Below the pieces are notes generated by a model. It made no database searches. It was not told where the DNA came from and saw only the letters and a program-made list of their open reading frames with translations. The translations under genes and the position numbers were made by a program. A stretch of DNA of 38,455 nucleotides from Pelotomaculum sp. Lineage in GTDB: Bacteria > Bacillota > Desulfotomaculia > Desulfotomaculales > Pelotomaculaceae. The stretch lies in contig JAHDOA010000014.1 in the NCBI GenBank assembly GCA_018435055.1, positions 1 to 38,455 of the forward strand. The letters run 5' to 3'. Below are positions 11,867 through 38,455 of the stretch, one piece after another (within the stretch, counting starts at the first letter, position 1; every line of letters starts with the position of its first letter).

Positions 11867-12391
11867 ATGGACAGAAAATTTGAAAGGCTGCAGGAAATCA
11901 TTGAAAGCCATGGAGGCAGGGTCTCCCATTTAATTGCCATTTTACAGGAGGTGCAGGAAGAATACCGTTACTTGCCTGAAGAGGTGCTAACTTATATCGC
12001 TACGGCTATGAACATATCACCGGCCACAGTATATGGGGTCGCCACTTTTTATACACAGTTTTCGCTAATACCCAAGGGAAAGTATGTTATCAGGGTTTGT
12101 GACGGTACAGCCTGCCACGTAAGGGGTGCAGAACCCATTCATTTCGCTCTGCGGGAGGATCTGGCGCTGCCTAAAGGCGATTCGACCACTCCGGACATGC
12201 AGTTCACTGTGGAGACAGTCTCCTGTCTTGGCGCCTGCGGACTGGCGCCGGTGGTTGTGATTAACGGCGACGAGGTGCATGGCCAGACAACACCGGAATC
12301 AATATTGGGGGCTGTAAAAAAGATTGTATCCCGGGAGCAGCTGAAAGAAAACAAAAACTCCTCCGAAACGGGGTGTTGTCAAAATGCTTAA
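11867..12391 (+). CDS. hydC: NAD-linked [FeFe] hydrogenase, HydC (NuoE-like) subunit
   Basis: This 174-residue protein has an N-terminal helical bundle and a thioredoxin-like domain carrying the [2Fe-2S] cluster at Cys78, Cys83, Cys120 and Cys124 (CDGTAC ... CLGAC). It is the usual small subunit of the cytoplasmic trimeric or tetrameric hydrogenases that couple NADH and ferredoxin to H2. GGGGGTGAGAG precedes the ATG. Its stop overlaps the hydB start (ATG at 12384), so the two are translationally coupled. The last 15 residues are polar and end in a Cys-rich tail (GCCQNA), a minor oddity. Confidence 0.93.
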   Translation: MDRKFERLQEIIESHGGRVSHLIAILQEVQEEYRYLPEEVLTYIATAMNISPATVYGVATFYTQFSLIPKGKYVIRVCDGTACHVRGAEPIHFALREDLALPKGDSTTPDMQFTVETVSCLGACGLAPVVVINGDEVHGQTTPESILGAVKKIVSREQLKENKNSSETGCCQNA

Positions 12392-14267
12392 TTCCAGATT
12401 AGAACTGGATACCTTAAAGAAAAAAGCTCTAGCCGATATCGGCAGTAAGGAAAAAAGAATCCTGGTCTGCGCGGGTACCGGGTGTGTCGCCAACGGTTCT
12501 TTGAAAGTATTCGAGCTCTTCCAGCAACTGCTGGGCGAAAAGCCTGAACTGGCGGTCAGCCTGGCGTTGGAGAAAGAACATTCTCACCAGGGAGTCAGCG
12601 CTCATACCAGCGGCTGCCACGGCTTCTGCCAGATGGGCCCCCTGGTCAGGATCGAGCCCCGGGGAACGCTTTATTGCAAGGTCCAGCCCGGAGATGTCGC
12701 TGAAATTTTCGAGGAACACATTATAAACAACAGGTTGGTTTCCAGACTTCTTTACCATGATGACAAAAACCAGTTGCCTATAGAAACTCAGGACGAAATC
12801 CCTTTTTATAAAAACCAGTTCAGAGTCGCCCTGGCGAACTGCGGGCGTATTGACCCGGACGACATCAAGGACTACATTGCCCACGACGGGTATCAGCCTC
12901 TCGCCAAGGTGCTGTTTGAAATGACACCGGACGAGGTAATCAAGGAAGTACTGGATTCAGGCCTGCGGGGCAGGGGCGGCGGCGGTTTCCCTACCGGAAG
13001 AAAATGGCTGTTCGCCCGTGAAGCCGGCGGGGAAAAGAAATACATTGTATGCAACGGTGACGAGGGAGACCCGGGCGCCTTCATGGACCGCAGCGTCATG
13101 GAAGGCGACCCGCACAGGATCATCGAGGGCATGATGCTGGCCGGCTACGCGGTGGGCGCCGACGAGGGTTACATATACGTCAGGGCTGAATACCCGCTGG
13201 CAGTTAAGCGGCTGCACAATGCGGTGGAAACAGCCGTTAGATACGGTATGCTGGGTGAGAATATACTGGGCAGCGGCTTCAGTTTTAAGGTTAACATAAA
13301 AGAAGGGGCCGGCGCTTTCGTTTGCGGGGAAGAGACTGCCCTGATCGCCTCCATAGAAGGAGAGCGCGGGATGCCCAGGCCCAGACCCCCCTTCCCGGCT
13401 GTCAGCGGCCTCTGGGGTTGCCCCACAGTCATAAACAACGTGGAAACCCTGGCCAACTTGCCGTCCATAATACTGAAGGGCGCGGGGTGGTTTAGCAACA
13501 TAGGCGTTACCACCAGCACCGGCACCAAGACTTTTGCTTTGGCCGGCCAGGTGGCCCATACCGGTCTGGTGGAAGTCCCCATGGGCCTTACTTTAAAGGA
13601 AATAGTATTTGACATCGGCGGCGGGCTCCGGGACAATAAGGTTTTTAAGGCTGTGCAGATAGGAGGTCCCTCCGGGGGCTGCCTCACCAGGGAGCACCTT
13701 GATCTGCCTCTTGATTACGATTCTTTACAGAAGGCAGGGGCGATGGTAGGTTCCGGCGGTCTGGTGGTGATGGGTGAAGACACCTGCATGGTGGAAGTAG
13801 CCAAATTTTTCATGGGTTTTGTCCAGAATGAATCCTGCGGCAAGTGTGTACCATGCCGTGAAGGTACCAGGGGAATGCTGGAGCTGCTCAATCGGATAGC
13901 AAACGGCAGCGGAACGGAAGAAGACCTGTCGTTGCTGGAAGAACTGGCGCTGATAGTTAAAGACGGTTCTCTTTGCGGGCTGGGCAAAACTTCTCCCAAC
14001 CCTGTACTGACCACGCTCAGGTACTTTAGATCCGAATACGAGGCCCATGTGAGGGACAAGAAGTGCCCGGCCGGAGTATGCAAGGACCTGCTTGACTACC
14101 GGATCGATCCCTCCTTGTGCAAGGGGTGCGGGTTGTGTAAGAAGCTCTGTCCGGCCGACGCCATATCCGGGGAGAGAAAAGAGCCCCACTGGATAGACCT
14201 GGAAAAATGTATTAAATGCGGGACCTGTATCAGCAAGTGCAAATTCGGCTCAATAGTCACTAACTAG
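12384..14267 (+). CDS. hydB: NAD-linked [FeFe] hydrogenase, HydB (NuoF-like) flavoprotein subunit
   Basis: This 627-residue protein starts with a [2Fe-2S] thioredoxin-like domain (CAGTGC ... SGCHGFC). Then come the NuoF core with an NADH-binding GRGGGGFPTGRKW, the FMN site CNGDEGDPGAFMDR and GAGAFVCGEETALIASIEG, an SLBB domain, and the N3-type [4Fe-4S] motif ESCGKCVPCREGT with a further Cys in GSLCGLG. It ends with two ferredoxin clusters (CKGCGLCKKLCP, CIKCGTCISKCK). This is the standard architecture of bifurcating-hydrogenase HydB: it exchanges electrons with NAD(H) at FMN and passes them through the Fe-S chain. It overlaps hydC by 8 nt and lies 16 nt before hydA. Confidence 0.94.
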   Translation: MLNSRLELDTLKKKALADIGSKEKRILVCAGTGCVANGSLKVFELFQQLLGEKPELAVSLALEKEHSHQGVSAHTSGCHGFCQMGPLVRIEPRGTLYCKVQPGDVAEIFEEHIINNRLVSRLLYHDDKNQLPIETQDEIPFYKNQFRVALANCGRIDPDDIKDYIAHDGYQPLAKVLFEMTPDEVIKEVLDSGLRGRGGGGFPTGRKWLFAREAGGEKKYIVCNGDEGDPGAFMDRSVMEGDPHRIIEGMMLAGYAVGADEGYIYVRAEYPLAVKRLHNAVETAVRYGMLGENILGSGFSFKVNIKEGAGAFVCGEETALIASIEGERGMPRPRPPFPAVSGLWGCPTVINNVETLANLPSIILKGAGWFSNIGVTTSTGTKTFALAGQVAHTGLVEVPMGLTLKEIVFDIGGGLRDNKVFKAVQIGGPSGGCLTREHLDLPLDYDSLQKAGAMVGSGGLVVMGEDTCMVEVAKFFMGFVQNESCGKCVPCREGTRGMLELLNRIANGSGTEEDLSLLEELALIVKDGSLCGLGKTSPNPVLTTLRYFRSEYEAHVRDKKCPAGVCKDLLDYRIDPSLCKGCGLCKKLCPADAISGERKEPHWIDLEKCIKCGTCISKCKFGSIVTN

Positions 14268-14283
14268 GGAGGGGGCTGTATTT

Positions 14284-16308
14284 ATGAGTAGCAACGGAAA
14301 ACTGACCATAGACGGGCTGGAAATAGAAATCCGGGGAGAGAAAAACCTGCTGGAATTAATCCGCAGGGCAGGAATTAATCTACCCACCTTCTGCTACCAC
14401 TCTGAGCTAAGTGTTTACGGGGCGTGCCGCCTCTGTCTGGTGGAGACCGATAAAATGGGCCTGGTGGCTGCCTGCTCAACCCCTCCCCAGGAAGGGATGA
14501 TTGTCAAAACTAATACCCTGCGGACCCGGCGGCTGCGTAAAATGGTCATCGAACTCCTGCTGGCCAACCACGAGAGGGAGTGTACCACCTGCTCGAGGAG
14601 CGGCAGGTGCAAACTGCAGCTGCTGGCCCAACAGTTGGGGGTAAAGGAAGTAAGGTTCGGCAAGCGGGATAAAAAGCTGCCTTTAGATTTGACCAGCCCC
14701 GCGATAGTAAAAGATCCCAACAAATGCATACTTTGCGGTGACTGTGTCCGCATGTGCAAGGAAGTACAAGGACTGGGGATCTGGGACTTTGCCCACCGCG
14801 GTTCTAAGACGGTGGTTACCACGGCTTTTAACAAGGAACTATCCGATGTGGCCTGCGTTAACTGCGGACAGTGTGTTTCTGTATGCCCGACCGGAGCGCT
14901 TACTGTAAAAAGTGAAATCGACAAGGTCTGGAATGCGATACATAACCCTGATCAGACTGTTGTGGTTCAGATAGCCCCTGCGGTCCGGGTCGCTCTGGGA
15001 GAAGAATTTGGGCTGGGCGCGGAAGACGTCACGGGTAAAATCGTTGCCGGACTGAAGCTGATTGGGGTTGACAGGGTGTTCGATACTCTGTTTGCCGCCG
15101 ATATGACCACTATAGAAGAATCAAACGAGTTTCTGGAACGCCTCGCGAAAAATGAAAACCTGCCCATCTTTACCTCCTGCTGCCCTGGCTGGATAAAGTA
15201 TTGCGAGCAGTTTCACGCCGAGCTTCTGCCCAATGTTTCAAGCTGCCGTTCGCCGCAGCAGATGTTCGGGTCGGTAGTTAAAAAATACTATGCCAAAAAG
15301 CTGGATAAGCGGCCGGAAGAAATGTTTGTGGTATCGATAATGCCCTGCGTGGCTAAAAAATTCGAAGCCCAAAGGCCGGAATTTACTACAGAAGGAGCTC
15401 CTGACGTCGACGCAGTGCTGACCACGGTGGAAATCGCCCGGATGTTCAAGGAAGCCTCCATAGATTTCACAGCGCTGGCAAACAAGGCCTTCGATAATCC
15501 GCTGGGTGTAGGCTCCGGGGCCGCCCTCATCTTTGGGGCGTCCGGCGGTGTAATGGAATCAGTGGTACGCTATGTGGCAGGGCTTACCGGGGGCGACGAA
15601 GTAGGACGCATTGATTTCCTGCCGGTGCGGGGCATGGAGGGGATCAAAACAGCCTCTGTTGAAGTCAATGGCAGGGCTTTGCAGCTAGCTGTGGTAAACG
15701 GCCTGGGAAATACTGAAAAACTCATATCAATGATTAAATCCGGAGAAGCGACCTTCGACGCCGTAGAGGTAATGTCCTGCCCCGGCGGATGCGTTGGCGG
15801 CGGGGGACAGCCTGATATCAACGACACGGTGGCCCGTACCAGGCGGGCGGGGGAAATATATGAAATGGACAGGGTGCAGCAGCTGCATAAACCCCAGGAC
15901 AACTATTTTGTAGGCAAAGCCTTTGAAGAGTGGTTCGGCGGGGTCAACAACCAGGAAACGCACCACGCCATTCATACAACATATGTGCCGCGCCGGCGCA
16001 TAAACGGGAAACCCTTTATAGTAAACGATTCCCGGTCACAGCCCTTGCGGGTGTCGGTATGTCTTGGTACGGGCTGCTACCTCAGGGGAGCGTATGACGT
16101 AATTAAAGAATTCAATGATTTGGCGGAAAACCAGGGGATTGCCGGCCAGTTGGAACTTAACGGCACATTTTGCCTGGAGAAATGCGATAATGGTGTTTCA
16201 GTAAATATAAATGATGAGATTATTACCGGAGTTAGCCCCGAAAATGCCGGGGAGGTATTTAAGAATAAAATATCCCCACTTGTTGGTAAAACTTCGACTA
16301 AATTATAA
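14284..16308 (+). CDS. hydA: NAD-linked [FeFe] hydrogenase, HydA catalytic subunit
   Basis: This 674-residue protein has an N-terminal [2Fe-2S] domain (YGACRLC), a NuoG-type His-ligated cluster (HERECTTC ... GRC), two [4Fe-4S] clusters (CILCGDCVRMC, CVNCGQCVSVCP) and an H-cluster domain with TSCCPGW (Cys299, Cys300), MPCVAKK (Cys355) and SCPGGCVGGGG (Cys499, Cys503). All catalytic residues, including the proton-relay Cys299, are intact and coincide with Clostridium CpI numbering. A C-terminal extension (about 585-674) is a further NuoE-like [2Fe-2S] domain (Cys593, 598, 630, 634). With HydB and HydC it should form a cytoplasmic complex interconverting H2 with NADH and reduced ferredoxin. Bifurcation itself is inferred from family membership. 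GGGAGGGGG precedes the ATG. Confidence 0.95.
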   Translation: MSSNGKLTIDGLEIEIRGEKNLLELIRRAGINLPTFCYHSELSVYGACRLCLVETDKMGLVAACSTPPQEGMIVKTNTLRTRRLRKMVIELLLANHERECTTCSRSGRCKLQLLAQQLGVKEVRFGKRDKKLPLDLTSPAIVKDPNKCILCGDCVRMCKEVQGLGIWDFAHRGSKTVVTTAFNKELSDVACVNCGQCVSVCPTGALTVKSEIDKVWNAIHNPDQTVVVQIAPAVRVALGEEFGLGAEDVTGKIVAGLKLIGVDRVFDTLFAADMTTIEESNEFLERLAKNENLPIFTSCCPGWIKYCEQFHAELLPNVSSCRSPQQMFGSVVKKYYAKKLDKRPEEMFVVSIMPCVAKKFEAQRPEFTTEGAPDVDAVLTTVEIARMFKEASIDFTALANKAFDNPLGVGSGAALIFGASGGVMESVVRYVAGLTGGDEVGRIDFLPVRGMEGIKTASVEVNGRALQLAVVNGLGNTEKLISMIKSGEATFDAVEVMSCPGGCVGGGGQPDINDTVARTRRAGEIYEMDRVQQLHKPQDNYFVGKAFEEWFGGVNNQETHHAIHTTYVPRRRINGKPFIVNDSRSQPLRVSVCLGTGCYLRGAYDVIKEFNDLAENQGIAGQLELNGTFCLEKCDNGVSVNINDEIITGVSPENAGEVFKNKISPLVGKTSTKL

Positions 16309-16330
16309 CCCCCAAAATACTCCTTTCCAA

Positions 16331-16370
16331 ACCCGGATGCTGTGTACTCCAGCGCCGGGTATTTTTTTTT
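16331..16370 (+). terminator. Rho-independent terminator of hydCBA
   Basis: ACCCGG (16331-16336), extended by TGCTG/CAGC pairs, folds with CCGGGT (16355-16360). A run of nine T follows at 16362-16370. Confidence 0.9.
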
Positions 16371-16380
16371 GAAAAAACAA

Positions 16381-16409
16381 TTGCCCTGTAAAATTGACTA
16401 TGTTAAAAT
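16381..16409 (+). promoter_or_regulatory. Promoter of a candidate small RNA or leader
   Basis: TTGCCC (16381-16386), a 17-bp spacer and TAAAAT (16404-16409). It lies just after the hydCBA terminator and before the two structured elements that precede the pantothenate genes. Confidence 0.5.
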
Positions 16410-16415
16410 ATAACC

Positions 16416-16566
16416 GAAAAAGGGTGGTATCCGTGTGGAACCGCACCTAATTTGTTGCTTTTTGAAGTTTTTAGCGATTTTTTAACCGCTTGGAGCCGGG
16501 CCGGACCGAGACGGAGGTTAGATACTTACGCCTTTCGGGCTGTCCCGGAAGGCTTTTTGTTTGTTT
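16416..16566 (+). ncRNA. Candidate structured RNA or attenuator with intrinsic terminator
   Basis: A transcript from the promoter at 16381 would begin near here, in a 423-nt stretch without a gene. It contains a hairpin GGTATCC / GGAACC with a GTGT loop (about 16427-16443). A nested structure follows at about 16485-16519, where AACC pairs with GGTT and, inside it, CTTGG pairs with CCGAG. The element ends in the terminator stem GCCTTTCGGG (16530-16539) / CCCGGAAGGC (16544-16553) followed by T5GTTTG. It could be a free small RNA or the regulatory leader of the DUF2520-panB operon. I do not recognise a known riboswitch class. Confidence 0.45.
16530..16566 (+). terminator. Intrinsic terminator upstream of the pan operon
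   Basis: A 10-bp stem with one G-U pair, CTGT loop and TTTTTGTTTGTTTT tail. It lies 170 nt before the DUF2520 start, so it either ends a separate small RNA or works as an attenuator. Confidence 0.8.
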
Positions 16567-16596
16567 TGGGAAATTATGCTTTTCGAAATTGTAGAT

Positions 16597-16686
16597 AGGC
16601 GACCTGTGGGTTTACGTTAGCGGCGATATTGAGTCCGGACAATTTTAGGGAGCGAACGGAGCCACGTTGTAAAGCTTCAGGTCGCC
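16597..16686 (+). ncRNA. Candidate structured 5' leader of the DUF2520-panB operon
   Basis: A perfect 9-bp stem GGCGACCTG (16598-16606) / CAGGTCGCC (16678-16686) encloses a 71-nt interior. The interior itself has paired segments: TTTAC with GTAAA close to the outer stem, and ATTG with CAAT around a self-complementary GTCCGGAC. A closing stem with multi-part interior is typical of cis-regulatory RNAs. No terminator follows, so translational control of the gene at 16738 would be the likely mode. The class is not recognised. Confidence 0.45.
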
Positions 16687-16737
16687 GCGGGCGAATTTGT
16701 TTTTTACCCCTGACACCAGGCGAGGGAGATAATGTCC

Positions 16738-17619
16738 ATGTCTAAACCTAAAATCGCGGTTGTTGGGGCTGGAAAGGTTGGTTCCGCCCTGGCGTTCCTT
16801 TTAAACCGGCGGGGTTACCCGGTAGCCGGGGTGGCCAGCAGAAGCATTAATTCAGCCAGGCGCGTGGCTGAAGAATTAAAAGTGCCCGCTGCCGTTAAAC
16901 CGGAGGAAGTAACCACCGGCGCGGATGTGGTCTTTATTACTACCCCGGACCGCGTGATTGCGGATGTTGCGGAAAGGATCACCGCACGGGGCGGTTTCAA
17001 GCCCGGTCAGGTGGTTTTTCATACCAGCGGGGCCCATTCAGCCGATGAGGTGGGCTTTGTACGCCGCGCTGGCGCGCTGGCCGCCTCACTGCATCCCCTC
17101 CAGTCTTTTGCCGACATCAAGATGGCCATGGAAAACCTGCCCGGTTCATATTTTGCCCTGGAAGGGGATCCCGAGGCGCTTCCCCTGGCCGAACAGATTG
17201 TCAAAGATCTGGGTGGTAAAAGTTTCTCTATAGCCGCTGCGGACAAGCCTCTGTATCATGCGGCTGCCTGTGTCGCTTCAAACTACCTGGTTTCTTTGAT
17301 GCATTTGGCGACGGGGCTTTATAGCCGTTTCGGCCTTACCCGGGCAGAATCCTTTGAAGCGTTATTACCCCTGATCATGGGCACAATAAAAAATATCAGC
17401 CAGGTGGGACCGGCGCATGCTCTGACCGGCCCTGTAGCCAGGGCTGACGGTCCGACCCTGGAAAGTCACCTGCAGGTTTTAAAAGACGTAGGCGGGCAGG
17501 AACTTGATTTATACAGCAGGCTGGGACTCTACACTGTCGGAGTAGCCCTGGAAAAAGGCGGCATCAGCGCCGAAGAGGCGAAAAAACTAGACGACATATT
17601 CAGGGAGGGTTTTTTATGA
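16738..17619 (+). CDS. Rossmann-fold dehydrogenase with DUF2520 domain (possible ketopantoate reductase substitute)
   Basis: This 293-residue protein has an N-terminal NAD(P)-binding motif (VVGAGKVGSALAF) and a C-terminal helical DUF2520-type domain. It is related to F420-dependent NADP reductase and 6-phosphogluconate-type dehydrogenases. Two in-frame ATGs lie at 16732 and 16738; the second sits 9 nt from GAGGGAG and is preferred. It overlaps panB by 4 nt (ATGA), so the two are coupled. No classical panE is seen in the window, so it may supply ketopantoate reductase activity. That function is an inference from position; the family itself has no settled role known to me. Confidence 0.8.
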   Translation: MSKPKIAVVGAGKVGSALAFLLNRRGYPVAGVASRSINSARRVAEELKVPAAVKPEEVTTGADVVFITTPDRVIADVAERITARGGFKPGQVVFHTSGAHSADEVGFVRRAGALAASLHPLQSFADIKMAMENLPGSYFALEGDPEALPLAEQIVKDLGGKSFSIAAADKPLYHAAACVASNYLVSLMHLATGLYSRFGLTRAESFEALLPLIMGTIKNISQVGPAHALTGPVARADGPTLESHLQVLKDVGGQELDLYSRLGLYTVGVALEKGGISAEEAKKLDDIFREGFL

Positions 17620-18636: not shown

Positions 18637-19365
18637 ATGGATTATGACATATGGAAAGCAACGGAACTTACTGAGAAATATCTCTCCGGTGTTCGGGGAG
18701 CGATTCCTTTGGCTAAGGAACAGATTGAGCTAATGCTTAGGATTATTGATGCTTGTAATATCAAAGTCGAAAGGATTCTAGACCTTGGATGTGGAGATGG
18801 AATTCTGGCAGCTTCTATTTTGCAGAAATATACAGACGCTTCAGGAGTGTTGCTGGATATTTCCGAACCGATGATTCAGGTTGCTAAAAATAAACTTGTA
18901 AAGTACAAGGAGCACTTTGACTTCGTTCTTTTTGATTTCGGCGAAAGTCGATGGGCTGAAAGGGTAAAAGCCAAAGGCCCGTTCAGTGTCATTATTTCAG
19001 GGTTTTCAATCCATCATCAAACTGATGAAAGAAAACAGAAACTTTATTCAGAAATCTTTAATTTATTAATACCTGGAGGATTATTTTTAAATCTGGAGAA
19101 TGTATCTTCTTCCACTAAATGGGTAAGTTCCTTATTTGACGAGTATTTTATTGATTCTTTGTATAATATGCATCTTCTAAATGGTGACGGAATAACAAGG
19201 CAAGGAGTGTCTGAGGAGTGGTATCACAGAGAAGATATAGAAGTAAATAAACTGGCGCCAGTTGAAAAACAATGCGAATGGTTACGCGAAATAGGATTTT
19301 GTGATGTTGACTGTTATTTTAAGGTATTCGAAATCGCGTTGTTTGGCGGGAGGAAACCAAGATAA
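18637..19365 (+). CDS. Class I SAM-dependent methyltransferase
   Basis: This 242-residue protein has the SAM-binding motif LDLGCGDG (about 48-55) and the later motifs FDFVLFDFGE and FSVIISGFSIHH, typical of Methyltransf_12/25-like enzymes. The substrate cannot be told. Its ribosome site is unusual: GGGGGGA at 18613-18619 lies 17 nt before the ATG. Base composition is visibly more AT-rich than panB and panC, it splits an otherwise natural panB-panC order, and GGGGACA repeats lie on both sides. These point to insertion by transfer. It is unlikely to act in pantothenate synthesis. Confidence 0.85.
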   Translation: MDYDIWKATELTEKYLSGVRGAIPLAKEQIELMLRIIDACNIKVERILDLGCGDGILAASILQKYTDASGVLLDISEPMIQVAKNKLVKYKEHFDFVLFDFGESRWAERVKAKGPFSVIISGFSIHHQTDERKQKLYSEIFNLLIPGGLFLNLENVSSSTKWVSSLFDEYFIDSLYNMHLLNGDGITRQGVSEEWYHREDIEVNKLAPVEKQCEWLREIGFCDVDCYFKVFEIALFGGRKPR

Positions 19366-38312: not shown

Positions 38313-38455
38313 TAAACGGAGAGTTTGATCCTGGCTCAGGACGAACGCTGGCGGCGTGCTTAACACATGCAAGTCGAACGGTTGAGAGGTGAGAGTTGAG
38401 AGGTTAGAAGTGAGATTAAGGAGCAATTCGGCAAGGCCGAATTGCAACCATTAGA
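38313..38455 (+). rRNA. 16S ribosomal RNA, 5' end (continues past the window)
   Basis: AGAGTTTGATCCTGGCTCAG at 38320-38339 is the universal 16S 5' sequence (E. coli positions 8-27), followed by GACGAACGCTGGCGGCGTGC and the TAACACATGCAAGTCGAACG block. The mature end is placed about seven bases upstream by analogy with E. coli. After GAACGG the V1 helix is expanded by a purine-rich tandem repeat and an extra hairpin. The gene runs off the right edge. Confidence 0.97.
38381..38408 (+). repeat. Tandem 14-nt repeat inside the 16S V1 region
   Basis: GTTGAGAGGTGAGA (38381-38394) is followed at once by GTTGAGAGGTTAGA (38395-38408), one mismatch. A third partial unit AGTGAGA follows. A separate perfect hairpin (GCAATTCGGC / GCCGAATTGC, 38423-38445) lies just downstream. 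Confidence 0.85.

Follow-up and report, generated by a model that had tools for sequence, protein, structure and literature searches.

The question raised by this locus is what function lies in the segment at positions 16381 to 16566, just upstream of a pantothenate operon, in a 38,455-nt stretch of Pelotomaculum sp. DNA (the window; all features described here lie on its + strand). The first-pass annotation had described a promoter, a hairpin with a GGTATCC/GGAACC stem, a second structure, and an intrinsic terminator within a stretch devoid of ORFs. It had left the RNA unassigned to any class, with a tentative guess that it might be one of the published pan RNAs, and had proposed an Rfam search and a covariation analysis in related genomes as checks. 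When all Rfam families were searched, positions 16421 to 16518 (+) matched the pan motif (RF01749) across the whole model (1-92) with 57.3 bits, compared to a gathering score of 36.2, and with an E value of 1.4e-7 in cmscan when the whole window was taken as the search space. This was the sole match above cut-off in the region; the L10 leader, Scr3920, and other low-threshold Rfam matches in 16309 to 16740 all scored under their own cut-offs and were rejected. The tentative guess was thus right, and the element can be named as RF01749 and does not represent an unassigned class. The sequence and the model match also confirmed the two hairpins and the terminator, and no ORF of at least 60 aa was present in 16309 to 16731, in agreement with the description of the stretch as ORF-free. 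The folding-energy z score of 16415 to 16566 was -1.95, but energy alone is weak evidence here and is not informative. No DNA similar to the element was found in phage records. Judged by its match to the family model, the element is a genuine pan RNA, placed with good support in a class that is known but orphan, and forms an RNA leader.

The pan motif was described in 2010 as tandem stems with two conserved bulged A residues that precede panB, panC, or panD operons, and the part of that report devoted to it proposes that the tandem stems form a dimeric protein-binding site (Weinberg et al. 2010, PMC2864571). The element in the window shares with RF01749 the tandem stems, each with two bulged A residues, and the pantothenate-gene context, and we observed no difference in the RNA itself. 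Upstream of the motif is a promoter-like site (TTGCCC, a 17-nt spacer, and a TG-extended TAAAAT; 16381 to 16409), and its sequence is identical in four congeners, which bears out the promoter called at first pass. Hairpin 1 (16421 to 16448) consists of 3 bp, a bulged A, 5 bp, a bulged A, 2 bp, and a loop, and its arms, GGGTGGTATCC and GGAACCGCACC at 16422 to 16447, contain the GGTATCC and GGAACC strands. Hairpin 2 (16486 to 16514, arms CCGCTTGGAGCC and GGACCGAGACGG) differs in having 3 bp in its last segment before the loop. Both hairpins follow from the Rfam model and from covariation, and the motif ends in a conserved 3' tail (AGGT here; 16515 to 16518) that is unpaired in the Rfam model.

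We compared the element with pan loci from across the phylum. Among 60 relatives, 54 carry the motif, as do 102 of 113 class-level genomes and 116 of the 299 genomes in a phylum-wide sample, whereas Bacillus subtilis was the only 1 of 14 control genomes to carry it; the pan element is therefore ordinary in its lineage. Both stems covary across 128 loci, with several pair types at most positions and approximately 117 to 128 of the 128 loci paired at most positions. The bulged A of hairpin 1 was present in 128/128 loci on the 5' side and in 127/128 on the 3' side, and both bulged A residues of hairpin 2 were present in 128/128; given that the loci were picked with the Rfam model, and that the parser favors pairing and one bulged A per hairpin, these counts are supportive rather than independent. 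A nonstandard pair also recurs beside a bulged A in hairpin 2, where the first pair of the innermost stem is G.A in 66 loci and U-A in 53.

The intrinsic terminator of the window (GCCTTTCGGG-CTGT-CCCGGAAGGC followed by TTTTTGTTT; 16530 to 16562) has a 10-bp stem at 16530 to 16553 and a T-rich tract at 16554 to 16562. Terminators in this position are conserved across the family: a terminator hairpin occurred within 150 nt after the motif in 115 of the 128 phylum loci, compared to 24 of 128 when the downstream sequence was shuffled, and the median spacing between motif and terminator was 15 nt. The 5' arm of the terminator is recurrent (CCUUUCG, CCUUCCG, or CCUUCUG) and complementary to the base of hairpin 2 together with the tail (CGGGAGG, CGGAAGG, or CAGAGGG). 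Among 103 distinct loci, the duplex of tail and terminator arm had a mean energy of -8.6 kcal/mol, compared to -7.7 kcal/mol (sd 0.17) when arms were swapped between loci, with none of 500 permutations as good, although swapping removes the relatedness of loci only partly. With one locus per taxonomic family (43 families), p was at most 0.007 in all 60 draws. The duplex fell to -5.7 kcal/mol when the letters of the arm were shuffled, and among sliding windows of the motif, it was the tail that paired best with the terminator arm. Position 2 of the helix was G-C in 49 cases, G-U in 11, and A-U in 8, and the same base also pairs within hairpin 2 as C-G or U-A, such that three strands change together. 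L060 and similar loci place the U and G of CCUUCUG in the loop of the terminator, whose own folding does not require them. Together, the complementarity of arm and tail, the permutation results, and the covariation support a predicted antiterminator whose formation would exclude the terminator as well as a closed hairpin 2 base. The candidate sensor domain is in this way coupled to the expression platform, given that comparison of loci ties antiterminator and terminator to the hairpin 2 base.

In the window, the predicted antiterminator is a 6-bp helix, G-U pairs included, between CGGAGG (16512 to 16517), formed by the hairpin 2 base and tail, and CUUUCG (16532 to 16537), within the 5' arm of the terminator; comparative pairing also suggests a second register, in which CCGAGA (16506 to 16511) would pair with 16533 to 16538. 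Fold prediction for the moment at which the 5' arm of the terminator has just been made gave a probability of 0.38 for the antiterminator and 0.23 for the closed hairpin 2, and this similarity is as expected of a switch. The antiterminator was the best fold at this decision point in only 46 of the 103 loci. For the complete RNA of the window, the terminated fold was better by approximately 10 kcal/mol, and with an antiterminator of only 6 bp, readthrough would require either kinetic control or a factor.

These findings suggest, with a probability that we place at about 0.72, that the pan-motif RNA is a transcription attenuator of the panG-panB-panC-panD operon in which hairpin 2 and the antiterminator form the switch and the signal turns the operon off. 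RNA synthesis would begin from the promoter, near 16409, and both bulged-A hairpins would fold. As long as hairpin 2 is open at its base, the 3' strand of that base and the tail (CGGAGG here, CGGAAGG or, as in Bacillus-type loci, CAGAGGG elsewhere) would block the terminator by pairing with its 5' arm (CUUUCG here, CCUUUCG or CCUUCUG elsewhere), and the operon would be read. A signal of sufficient pantothenate or CoA, carried by a protein dimer or a small ligand, would lock the tandem hairpins and hold hairpin 2 shut at its base, leaving the terminator free to form and to end transcription near 16560. The sign of control is one that we infer: the antiterminator needs the base of hairpin 2, and a stabilized hairpin 2 should therefore mean termination. 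The nature of the signal and the identity of the binder are likewise putative.

The same RNA could act with the opposite sign, either as an on switch in which the bound hairpins favor readthrough or through a bound protein that acts directly on polymerase or the terminator, with the tail complementarity being secondary. The strong preference of the complete, factor-free RNA for the terminated fold makes a readthrough-promoting factor conceivable; however, the antiterminator recruits bases from the three lowest pairs of hairpin 2, a hairpin whose stabilization should favor termination, and biosynthetic operons are usually controlled by feedback repression. We therefore regard this reading as unlikely. 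The alternative raised at first pass was a stand-alone small RNA with its own promoter and terminator; such an RNA would act in trans, with panG as a mere neighbor. Promoter and strong terminator do frame a unit of approximately 150 nt, but the motif precedes pantothenate or CoA genes in nearly all examined loci despite a varying gene order (panG-panB, panC-panD, panB, PanS-panC, and kinase operons), and in two genomes (L131 and L135) the tail GGGAGG stands directly at the start of a transporter gene without a terminator. This synteny contradicts the small RNA reading, which we consider very unlikely, whereas the attenuator that had been offered beside it gained support from the conserved terminator and antiterminator. 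Finally, the terminator could be the plain end of the hydrogenase operon that stops upstream at 16308, with the remainder being nonfunctional sequence. That operon appears by eye to have a terminator-like stem of its own at approximately 16334 to 16369, and the pan match and phylum-wide conservation refute this reading, to which we give next to no credence. The upstream genes themselves (12384 to 16308) encode a NuoF-like subunit and the large subunit of a group A6 [FeFe] hydrogenase with a C-terminal thioredoxin-like ferredoxin domain.

The attenuator logic may extend to loci that have no terminator. In L071, the sequence CUCCUCU is complementary to the tail and also to GAGGAG, the ribosome binding site, and could pair with either, and in L131 and L135 the tail is itself positioned like a ribosome binding site. 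From these single-sequence readings, it is possible that terminator-less loci keep the switch at the level of translation, with the tail competing with the ribosome binding site or acting as one.

The genes downstream of pan RNAs bear on the signal. In the window, a ribosome binding site (GAGGGAG; 16722 to 16728) precedes a candidate ketopantoate reductase gene (16732 to 17619) whose product has Rossmann and DUF2520 domains and which we take to be panG from its operon position and our knowledge of the family. It is followed, by domain match, by panB (PF02548; 17616 to 18446), panC (PF02569; 19485 to 20351), and panD (PF02261; 20401 to 20799), and then by a gene for an FAD-binding protein, presumably nadB. 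A SAM-dependent methyltransferase gene of unclear specificity lies between panB and panC (18637 to 19365) and is absent from nine related pan operons (L039 to L047). The contig ends within a 16S rRNA gene (38313 to 38455), a usual assembly break. Most pan copies in other genomes precede panG, panB, panC, or panD, and rarer copies precede other genes: BioY, an ECF S component, and type III pantothenate kinase (L162); panB and type III pantothenate kinase (L168); birA, an ECF S component, and type III pantothenate kinase (L068 with L194); an OPT transporter and type II pantothenate kinase (L163 with L193); PanS-like transporter genes followed by panC (L159 and L200), so called because their PanS matches score under the NCBI cut-off (300 versus 400 bits); and ECF S components, candidates for pantothenate uptake (L131 and L135, with L198 and L199). 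Two further copies precede genes without a family or pantothenate link, namely, a 78-aa ORF for a small CxxC protein (L158) and a gene for a secreted-looking protein (L111), which are possible new regulon members. The common denominator of the targets is the supply of pantothenate and its entry into CoA, and we infer from this that the sufficiency of pantothenate or CoA is the likely signal. A more specific proposal is that CoA or a compound of the CoA pathway is sensed directly by the pan RNA as a riboswitch, with tandem aptamers controlling pantothenate synthesis, uptake (ECF S and PanS-like proteins), and phosphorylation (type II and III kinases); we consider this proposal speculative and rather improbable.

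The gap of 170 nt between the element and the next gene was described correctly at first pass, and most of it is an insertion. Positions 16569 to 16701, after the terminator and outside the pan RNA, hold a 133-bp repeat that recurs many times within this genome (18 BLAST pieces). It is missing at this site in four congeners, in which approximately 72 nt separate the pan motif from panG, compared to 213 nt here. A second structured RNA at 16590 to 16700, suggested by an 18-nt inverted repeat, was considered and rejected, since the sequence belongs to this dispersed repeat and is not leader structure. The left end of the repeat is shared with a complete element (L181) that codes for a Y2/IS91-type transposase and resides in another genus of the family, and the copy in the window is a nonautonomous one. 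All but 1 of 17 element ends, taken from four genomes (copies including L032, L033, L086, L088, L089, and L183 to L192), immediately follow a terminator-like hairpin with a T-run, compared to 23 of 300 random positions; in this sample, L034 and L192 represent a single insertion shared by two genomes, and for one of these 16 ends the preceding hairpin is itself the end of another element copy. Ends most often fell 7 to 17 nt after the terminator stem. The terminators hit include those of the pan leader and, as recognized by eye rather than by model, of two T-box-like leaders and one cobalamin-riboswitch-like leader. The element's own end also resembles a terminator, with a hairpin plus ATTTGTT. 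The IS91-type element is thus probably a transposon that targets terminators, here that of the pan RNA, and a literature search for IS91-type or other transposons targeting terminators found nothing to the point. The insertion leaves the pan RNA and the panG ribosome binding site unchanged.

PyrR-type leaders are protein-bound transcription attenuators that exert feedback on a biosynthetic operon. The pan RNA resembles the PyrR-binding leaders of pyr operons in being a 5' leader with a terminator and a predicted, mutually exclusive antiterminator and in its proposed biosynthetic feedback, but their binding protein is known, whereas a protein binder of the pan RNA is hypothetical. Likewise, it shares with transcription-terminating riboswitches a conserved domain, a candidate sensor in its own case, in which the base would compete with antiterminator formation, but those have a ligand, whereas that of the pan RNA is putative. 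Our search for literature on the mechanism, ligand, or protein of the pan RNA found only the discovery paper and transcriptome listings, and the main-text pan passage of the former (PMC2864571) contains neither the terminator/antiterminator pairing nor the kinase and transporter targets. Reviews from 2022 report no validated CoA riboswitch (PMC9971707, PMC10043782), a stated gap that a CoA-pathway riboswitch would fill if that proposal were true. Collectively, the pairing of tail and terminator provides a concrete, mutable model of the switch and would account for the conservation of a 3' tail that the Rfam motif leaves unpaired, and the kinase and transporter targets suggest that the signal is CoA-pathway sufficiency. 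An old orphan, the pan RNA thereby becomes directly testable in B. subtilis, which carries the motif.
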